From the NCBI RefSeq assembly GCF_900176515.1, contig NZ_FWXV01000005.1:433360-497359 (forward strand): a DNA stretch of 64,000 nt, read 5' to 3'. A program made the position numbers and the translations under genes. This stretch comes from Kibdelosporangium aridum. Its GTDB lineage: Bacteria > Actinomycetota > Actinomycetes > Mycobacteriales > Pseudonocardiaceae. Positions 46,852 to 48,926 of this stretch are shown one piece after another. The notes below the pieces were generated by a model that saw nothing but the letters and a program-made list of their open reading frames with translations, made no database searches and had not been told where the DNA came from. How positions within the stretch are numbered: position 1 is the stretch's first letter; every line of letters begins with the position of its first letter.

Positions 46852-46862
46852 CCCCTCCGGCG

Positions 46863-46910
46863 TGTCCACCACTCCGGCACACCGAAATACACATTCCGGC
46901 ACACCGAAAT
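46863..46910. repeat. Left terminal repeat block (two 22-bp-spaced units)
   Basis: TCCGGCACACCGAAAT occurs at 46873-46888 and again at 46895-46910. The block opens with TGTCCACCAC, the inverted counterpart of the right-hand block at 48882-48922. Confidence 0.75.
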
Positions 46911-46934
46911 GCCCGGCGCGACCAGCCGCCGGGC
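46911..46934. terminator. Hairpin terminator
   Basis: GCCCGGCG (46911-46918) and CGCCGGGC (46927-46934), perfect 8-bp stem, followed by GTTT. It could end transcription of the iron locus, but it lies inside the left IS-like end. Confidence 0.6.
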
Positions 46935-46974
46935 GTTTCGCCGTGTGGGCTTACCCCGTTTTGGCAGACATCGT

Positions 46975-47103
46975 TCACTCGATCCTGGTGCGCCAGCGTT
47001 GCCGGTCGAGTTGCTCGGTGTGCGGGCGTGCCCAGAATGCCTCGGCCAGGGCGTTGTCATACGGGTCGCCGACGGTGCCCAGTGAGGGCGGACTGCGTAG
47101 GCA
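46975..47103 (-). pseudogene. IS3-family transposase (OrfB) fragment
   Basis: About 40 codons on the minus strand read SLGTVGDPYDNALAEAFWAR and then HTEQLDRQRWRTRIE before a stop at 46975-46977. GDxYDNALAEAF is the conserved region around the third catalytic residue (Glu) of IS3-type DDE transposases. The rest of the protein is missing on both sides. Confidence 0.75.
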
Positions 47104-47128
47104 TCAGCTTCTTTGGTGGCGGCGGGAC

Positions 47129-47773
47129 TCAGTCTTTGGTGGACGCCCCTGGTCCAGTCGCGGCGTACCGGGCGGCGATGGTGCGGACGGCCTCGTCGAC
47201 TACCTGAGCGACGCGTTCGGCGCTAACCTCCCAGCCCGGCACTAGGAGTGTCGGCCAGAAGACGTAGTTGGAGATCATGCCCAGGAACTGGGTGGCTGCG
47301 AGATCCACGTCCTCTACCCGCACCGTTCCCGCCTCGTGCTCGGCTAGGAGGTAGCTGCGTACGGACTCGAAGTAGGGCATCTTCCCGTGCGAGAACTGCG
47401 CGTGGGCCAGCTCGGGGAATCGCGGCAGCTCGGCGATGACGATTCGGAACAGGTCGGTCATCTGGGGGCGGCTCAACAGCTCGGCGTAGCGGCGACCGAT
47501 GCTGCTGAGCCCGTCGATGACGTTGCCTGCTGGCGGAGGATCCTCTTCGTCAGCGGTCGACCAGGACTCCGTGACGATGGCGTCGAAGAGGGCAGCTTTG
47601 CTCGGGAACTGCTTGAACAAGGTGGCCCGCGAAACGCCCGAGCACTCTGCGATCCGTGCCAGCGACGTGCGGTCGTAGCCCAACTCGAGGAACAGTGCGG
47701 TCGCGGCCGTCACGATCAGCGCGCGCTTCTCTTGGGCGACGCGCTGGTGGTACGTCGTCACAACCCTGCCCAT
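47129..47773 (-). CDS. TetR-family regulator inside the IS-bounded segment
   Basis: 214 residues. HTH about 25-60 (TALFLELGYDRTSLARIAEC, then SGVSRATLFKQFPSKAALF), and a C-terminal domain of TetR_C type with FRIVIAELPRFPELA, the common AcrR/AefR pattern. Divergent from the SDR gene across 142 bp with two palindromes, so it very likely controls that gene and itself. The 3' side abuts the IS3 fragment. Confidence 0.9.
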   Translation of the reverse strand: MGRVVTTYHQRVAQEKRALIVTAATALFLELGYDRTSLARIAECSGVSRATLFKQFPSKAALFDAIVTESWSTADEEDPPPAGNVIDGLSSIGRRYAELLSRPQMTDLFRIVIAELPRFPELAHAQFSHGKMPYFESVRSYLLAEHEAGTVRVEDVDLAATQFLGMISNYVFWPTLLVPGWEVSAERVAQVVDEAVRTIAARYAATGPGASTKD

Positions 47774-47792
47774 GGGCCGAGCATACGAGGTG

Positions 47793-47855
47793 AGTGGCTT
47801 GACTCGCCACTGCGGCCGACCTAGTGTCAGGGATGGTGAGTCGCCCGGCTCACCA
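47793..47855 (+). promoter_or_regulatory. Promoter of the SDR gene with flanking palindromes
   Basis: TTGACT (47799-47804), 17 bp, then TAGTGT (47822-47827). AGTGGC/GCCACT arms (47793-47798, 47806-47811) straddle the -35, and TGGTGAG/CTCACCA arms (47834-47840, 47849-47855) lie just after the start point. Both are candidate operators for the divergent TetR protein. Confidence 0.65.
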
Positions 47856-47915
47856 TTGGCCGCCGTCCTTCATTGATGATCCCGGTCATTCACGCACGTA
47901 CCGAAGGAACATTTG

Positions 47916-48695
47916 ATGCCTCGCTTCGACAACCAGACCGTGCTCGTGACCGGTGGGACCGGTGGTCAGGGCTCGAGCCACGTGCGCGCCTTTCACGCGG
48001 AGGGAGCGAACGTGGTGATCGGCGGCATCGACGCGGAACGCGGCGCCGCTCTCGCGGACGAGCTCGGGACCCGTGCTCGCTTCGCCCGCCTTGACGTTAC
48101 CGACGAGAGGTCGTGGTCCGCCGCTGTGCTAGCCGCCGAGAGCGCCTTCGGCGCCCTGAACGTGCTCGTCAACAACGCGGGCGTGCAGAACCCGCCTGCA
48201 ACAATCGAAACCACGGACCAGGCCACGTGGTCGCGCATCCTCGACATCAACCTCACAGGGACCTTCCTCGGCATCAAGGTCGCAGCCCCCGCTCTGCGCC
48301 GCGCAGCAGGGGGAGCCATCGTCAACATCGCCTCGACCATGGGCCTGGGCGGCACGGCTCACTACGCGCCGTACGTCGCCAGCAAGTGGGCCGTGCGAGG
48401 CCTCACCCAAACGGCAGCACTCGAGCTCGGCCGCGACCACATCCGGGTGAACACCATCCACCCCGGCGTGATCGCGACCTCCTTCATCCACGAACCAGCA
48501 GCTGGCGCAGTCGCGGCAATCGCCGACTTCTACTCACCCGAGCCGTTCGCCATTCCCCGGCTTGGAGAACCGGCCGACGTCACCCAGCTGCTCCTGTTCC
48601 TGACGTCATCAGACGCCTCGTTCATCACGGGGTCGGAGTACGTCATCGACGGTGGACTCCTCCTTGGCCCCGCCCTTCAGACCGAGACCGCATGA
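47916..48695 (+). CDS. SDR oxidoreductase under TetR control
   Basis: 259 residues from ATG at 47916 (AAGGAAC upstream). TGGTGGQGSSH (Rossmann), NNAGVQNP, NIASTMGLGG (catalytic Ser), YAPYVASKWA (YxxxK) and PGVIATSF are all intact, so it should be an active NAD(P)-dependent dehydrogenase of the 3-ketoacyl reductase/steroid dehydrogenase-like group. The pairing with a divergent TetR is common for enzymes that reduce reactive carbonyls or foreign compounds. It is carried between IS21-like ends. Confidence 0.9.
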   Translation: MPRFDNQTVLVTGGTGGQGSSHVRAFHAEGANVVIGGIDAERGAALADELGTRARFARLDVTDERSWSAAVLAAESAFGALNVLVNNAGVQNPPATIETTDQATWSRILDINLTGTFLGIKVAAPALRRAAGGAIVNIASTMGLGGTAHYAPYVASKWAVRGLTQTAALELGRDHIRVNTIHPGVIATSFIHEPAAGAVAAIADFYSPEPFAIPRLGEPADVTQLLLFLTSSDASFITGSEYVIDGGLLLGPALQTETA

Positions 48696-48881
48696 GCAGT
48701 CCGGACACAACCGGATGGAACGACTCCGCACGGGACGCCACGACTACACCCTCAACCGTGAAGAGCCGGATAAGGCTTCGGCACGACCAACGATCTCCTT
48801 CGGCAAGATCGTCGAACCGCATCTCTCCAACATCCGTGCCCGCCAAACGGGTCAACCCCGTGCCGGAAAGCGCATCTCGAC

Positions 48882-48922
48882 GTGCTGGTGTGGTGGACAC
48901 GGTGTGCTGGTGTGGTGGACAC
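48882..48922. repeat. Right terminal repeat block (two 22-bp-spaced units)
   Basis: The 21-base unit beginning GTGCTGGTGTGGTGGACACG occurs at 48882-48902 and 48904-48924. It is the inverted partner of the block at 46863-46910 and ends a few bases before the stop codon of the next gene. Confidence 0.8.
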
Positions 48923-48926
48923 GGGT

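Follow-up and report, generated by a model that had tools for sequence, protein, structure and literature searches.

What do the inverted repeats around a TetR-SDR gene pair in Kibdelosporangium aridum delimit: a mobile element, or something that the pair has entered? The pair lies in a 64,000-nucleotide window (C25:433360-497359 of a 12.27-Mb draft genome, G000), by which we mean the whole stretch of DNA that was analysed, and the initial annotation had read positions 46862-48922 as a single non-autonomous IS21-family element, with two 22-bp repeats at each end and istAB replaced by TetR-SDR. The inverted ends are real: 22-bp-periodic inverted sequences occupy 46861-46910 and 48860-48924, their arms (46861-46884 and 48900-48923) pair over 24 nt with 92% complementarity, and when the pairing is shifted it reaches 81% over 42 nt. 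Direct repeats spaced 22 bp occur on both sides as proposed (left 46870/46892, right 48882/48904), but the motif TGTCCACC is not doubled on the left, where it is found in only one of the two units, the inner one being a variant that has GAAATACACA. Domain and sequence matches also bore out the described interior, made up of a TetR regulator, an SDR oxidoreductase and an IS3 fragment without istAB. That description overlooked that the insert carries IS3 sequence at either end, together with IS3 terminal repeats and a flanking direct repeat, and that the outer repeats belong to a dispersed family.

A cargo-free site between the binding-protein and ADP-ribosylglycohydrolase genes, by which the initial annotation had proposed to check its element, exists in a relative, G004. 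At G004:C12:180800-181671, both flanking gene ends are conserved (90 and 88% identity to those of the window), and only an uninterrupted 136-bp palindrome lies between them, with no insert. In the window, this compact palindrome, whose orthologue is intact in G004, is split: its left arm, its loop and the first part of its right arm lie at 46861-46945, and the remaining right arm, likewise made of 22-bp units and present in the G004 orthologue, lies at 48863-48924. Excising 46946-48859 together with one GTG restores a palindrome of 147 bp in which the 22-bp register is kept, and the predicted RNA fold of the rejoined palindrome is -102 kcal/mol, compared with -37 and -18 kcal/mol for the separate parts. 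The G004 site firmly establishes the palindrome as older than the insert. The palindrome is also present at the orthologous locus of G007, with a long run of outer units. There, at the ends of contigs C8 and C2 (L131, L132), the right arm is a long tandem 22-bp run that terminates both contigs, so that the expanded array breaks the assembly.

Palindromes of this type are common in the K. aridum genome, where they are intergenic and where copies were counted through searches. A search with the 2,061-bp stretch gave 43 matches, almost all of which fall on its two ends, and the outer motif, at no more than 2 mismatches, was found at 71 sites in the 12.27-Mb genome and at 1 for a reversed control, which places the similarity of the ends far above chance. 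The motif sites form about 48 loci, nearly all of them compact (about 80-250 bp), in which outer units (CGTGTCCACCATTCCGGCAC) and inner units (GAAATGCACATTCCGGCAC) make up inverted arms around a short loop. We gathered 71 distinct palindrome sequences (median 146 bp) from all retrieved loci; they differ in their number of 22-bp units. Folding was tested for 60 of them, and in 78% it beat mononucleotide shuffles by more than 5 standard deviations. An 18-base unit, at no more than 1 mismatch, occurs 66 times in G000, 155 times in G001, 103 times in G004 and 133 times in G007, and 0-1 times in each of the other four Kibdelosporangium genomes; outside the genus, 3 of 289 family genomes have one match each (297 family genomes searched). 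Across these genomes, the copies constitute a dispersed, MITE-like palindrome family confined to one Kibdelosporangium subclade. A second palindrome subfamily shares the terminal unit and has another core (GTGAGTCAAACTGCTCGACTC...), as at G000:C21:261780-261905 and at many sites in G004 and G007, often beside or within palindromes of the first kind. A record labelled Rhodococcus rhodnii NRRL B-16535 (JOAA01 contigs; L142, L149, L161, L164, L167) groups with Kibdelosporangium and seems mislabelled. Our literature search turned up nothing relevant on palindromic repeats in Kibdelosporangium.

The sequence that interrupts the palindrome in the window is a 1,914-bp insertion of IS3 origin (46946-48859, minus strand), which is absent at the G004 site and each end of which carries an IS3 terminal repeat and a transposase remnant. 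Read on the minus strand, its high-coordinate end is the IS3 left end with the 5' remnant of orfA (48767-48859; start MPKPYP..., 93% over 86 bp to an IS3 in G004), and its low-coordinate end is a piece of orfB followed by the right terminal repeat. This orfB 3' remnant (46978-47089, minus strand, the region of GDPYDNALAEAFW) is 92-93% identical to orfB in L120 and L121; its C-terminal segment is deleted, with about 170 bp of orfB lost between this remnant and the right terminal repeat TGGGCTTACCCCGTTTTGGCAGACA (46946-46970, minus strand), which matches the end of an intact IS3 on contig C5 of G004 at 92.6% over 27 nt. Each end of that intact IS3 (L120) is a terminal repeat TGGGCTTGCCCCGTTT; the element has a CAT duplication, and its orfB scores 270 bits against NF033516 (cut-off 160). 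In the window, the left end has diverged (GGGGTTGACCC) and the starting TG is lost. Copies of GTG at 46943-46945 and 48860-48862 form a 3-bp direct repeat, presumably a target-site duplication, that is readable up to 5 bp (CCGTG) and short enough to have arisen by chance.

In its terminal repeat TGGGCTTACCCCGTTT, orfA start, orfB DDE segment and 3-bp direct repeat, the insert resembles the IS3 family (NF033516), with terminal inverted repeats and a short presumed target duplication as in that family. It differs in that its interior is TetR-SDR and the rest of orfB is deleted, leaving no functional orfA/orfB transposase; because only the orfA start and an orfB segment are left, we class it as an IS3 derivative and an incomplete member of the family. 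Its own genome yielded no other copy of a related IS3, so the derivative, now degenerate, is probably immobile.

The captured TetR-SDR block that replaces the IS3 interior spans 47090-48738, and blocks 88-93% identical to it are found in many genomes without IS3 remnants. Both of its genes are intact: a 214-aa TetR-family regulator (47129-47773, minus strand; PF00440, PF14246) with Ka/Ks of 0.09-0.24 to homologues, and a 260-aa SDR-family oxidoreductase (47913-48695, plus strand; PF13561, PF00106) with Ka/Ks of 0.17-0.19. Between them lies a divergent promoter region (47774-47912), in which two inverted repeats (about 47790-47810 and 47835-47857) are conserved across an alignment of 12 loci and are likely TetR operators. 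Blocks at 88-93% identity were found in G003, G001, G055 (from another family) and G033, and 41 of 397 order genomes have matches to the block (E <= 1e-40, up to 93% identical), none of which reach the IS3 remnants; no other copy of the pair was found in its own genome. The Ka/Ks values and the conserved inverted repeats support the view that regulator and enzyme, in their usual context, form a functional pair. In G003 (L122:2700-3300), the frame after the SDR gene resembles a deazaflavin-dependent nitroreductase by eye and is cut off in the window, which suggests a three-gene locus, two genes of which would be represented here.

We consider it very probable that the locus is an IS3-derived TetR-SDR insertion nested within a pre-existing palindrome. 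Its first layer, which we regard as demonstrated, is an intergenic palindrome of about 147 bp, built of 22-bp units and lying between two convergent genes before the split. The second, demonstrated by the anatomy of the insert, is the IS3-family derivative (46946-48859), with its 3-bp direct repeat, in the right arm of that palindrome. Its orfA/orfB interior has given way to the intact divergent TetR-SDR pair; if, as we infer, this replacement preceded transposition, the derivative would have moved as a unit, with an IS3 transposase acting in trans, as a non-autonomous element similar to a transporter IS. TetR would repress its own gene and that of the SDR through the two conserved intergenic inverted repeats.

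Transporter ISs (tIS) are IS derivatives with passenger genes (PMC9330008), and here too, genes that have nothing to do with transposition lie between the two ends of one IS, flanked by a short direct repeat. Unlike a tIS, the insert in the window is without transposase genes, its ends are degenerate, a single copy is known, and any mobility would be hypothetical. The composite was not found a second time in 8 genus genomes, 397 order genomes or plasmids. Its movement as a unit is for this reason something we only infer, and the earlier suggestion that such an element may spread a regulated enzyme finds no support among the genus and order genomes. The idea of a cargo-carrying, non-autonomous element survives in part, in that the insert is transposase-less and G004 has a cargo-free site, but the element is an IS3 derivative and its boundaries are 46946 and 48859.

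The order of events is less sure: a complete IS3 may have come in first, with the replacement following later in situ. On this variant of the nested reading, an intact IS3 entered the palindrome, its interior was swapped afterwards by illegitimate recombination, and the composite itself never moved; the nested anatomy would be identical. We hold this to be a real but lesser possibility. It fits with a composite known from a single copy across the 8 genus and 397 order genomes and with IS3 remnants from which part of the orfB 3' region has been lost, but it needs the independent arrival of TetR-SDR exactly between two IS3 remnants, in a genome that holds no other copy of either the pair or the IS3.

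Set beside both versions of the nested insertion, a single IS21-family element is very improbable. IS21-family ends are known to consist of multiple repeats (PMC10122671), and the window shares with that family multiple repeated units, inverted, at both ends; the analogy was therefore reasonable, yet membership fails. Between the ends there is neither istA nor istB, the interior holding only TetR, SDR and IS3 remnants, and the ends are common to no IS21 element searched. The units of the palindrome (CGTGTCCACC) do not match the istA loci of the same genome (L009-L018) even when 4 mismatches are allowed; most of these istA copies sit at the end of a contig, and four have another end, TGTCGACGGCACGTGAAAACTGACCCC, in common. 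The expectation that the same ends would be found with istA/istB thus failed at these loci, and the 289 family genomes outside the genus gave at most single matches. Nor are the outer repeats likely to be the bounds of the element, since they occur without cargo as one palindrome in G004 and as dozens of compact copies elsewhere, and since the IS3 ends and the direct repeat lie inside them. More improbable still is a composite pair made by two independent compact palindromes that flank TetR-SDR by chance: such palindromes are common and intergenic, but the two halves here complement each other to form one palindrome, the 22-bp register running on across the insertion point, and the G004 orthologue, with exactly one palindrome there, refutes the idea.

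The palindromes are themselves present in some genomes and absent from others at orthologous positions. In a search of the genus with the joined flanks of four palindromes, the palindrome at C19:38601 was present in G004 and G007 and its site empty in G001, G002 and G003; that at C26:140985 was present in G004 and G001 and empty in G007; that at C21:1059954 was present in G004 and empty in G007; and that at C27:982987 was present in G004 and empty in G003 and G002. At none of these four sites was a target duplication recognised. Many palindrome boundaries in the K. aridum genome are close to gene ends, and TAA or TAG lies no more than 12 bp from 28 of 75 boundaries, compared with 4 of 96 control positions. 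The genomes occupied at C19:38601 have TAG or TAA there, and those with an empty site have TGA. Gene orientation around the palindromes, as called by a GC3 gene finder, was too incomplete to use (15 of 48 unresolved).

Short and non-coding, with inverted ends, many dispersed copies and presence or absence at orthologous sites, the palindrome has the features of a MITE. No autonomous parent element sharing its ends was found among the 297 family genomes. REP/RAYT, with its Y1 transposase, was rejected as a mobilizer, PF01797 being absent from the copy-rich genomes G001 and G007. A gene with a DUF559-like endonuclease domain lies next to hutI, inside widely spaced repeat arms (G000:C21:272498-273633; L219:12199-13334; L202; L223); it is found in the same place in G001 and G007, and G004 keeps only a 17-bp remnant, CGTGCCCGCCATTCCGG. 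As an autonomous partner, this gene (C21:272500-273631) was judged unlikely, because homologues 43-54% identical to it occur family-wide in repeat-free genomes and because only one repeat-enclosed copy per genome was seen.

The nearest published layout that we found for the compact palindrome is that of BrickBuilt, a MITE of Porphyromonas gingivalis with a 23-bp tandem unit (PMC4596501). Both are intergenic and dispersed, occur in few species, have a tandem unit of 22-23 bp and inverted ends, and lack a transposase. They differ in that the tandem units of the Kibdelosporangium palindromes themselves form both inverted hairpin arms, whereas BrickBuilt has a separate leader and tail and IS5-like terminal repeats; for the palindrome, no parent IS was found. 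It is conceivable, although we think it unlikely, that the palindromes are a previously undescribed dispersed class, in which tandem 22-bp units build hairpin arms that grow and shrink beside gene ends, amplified in one Kibdelosporangium subclade by a mechanism that is neither IS21 nor REP/RAYT.

The locus is a clear example of repeats outside an insertion being mistaken for the ends of that insertion, and the palindromes may be a more interesting object than the cargo element. With copies borne by 4 of 8 species, and with both empty and occupied orthologous sites known, the palindrome family offers a tractable question.
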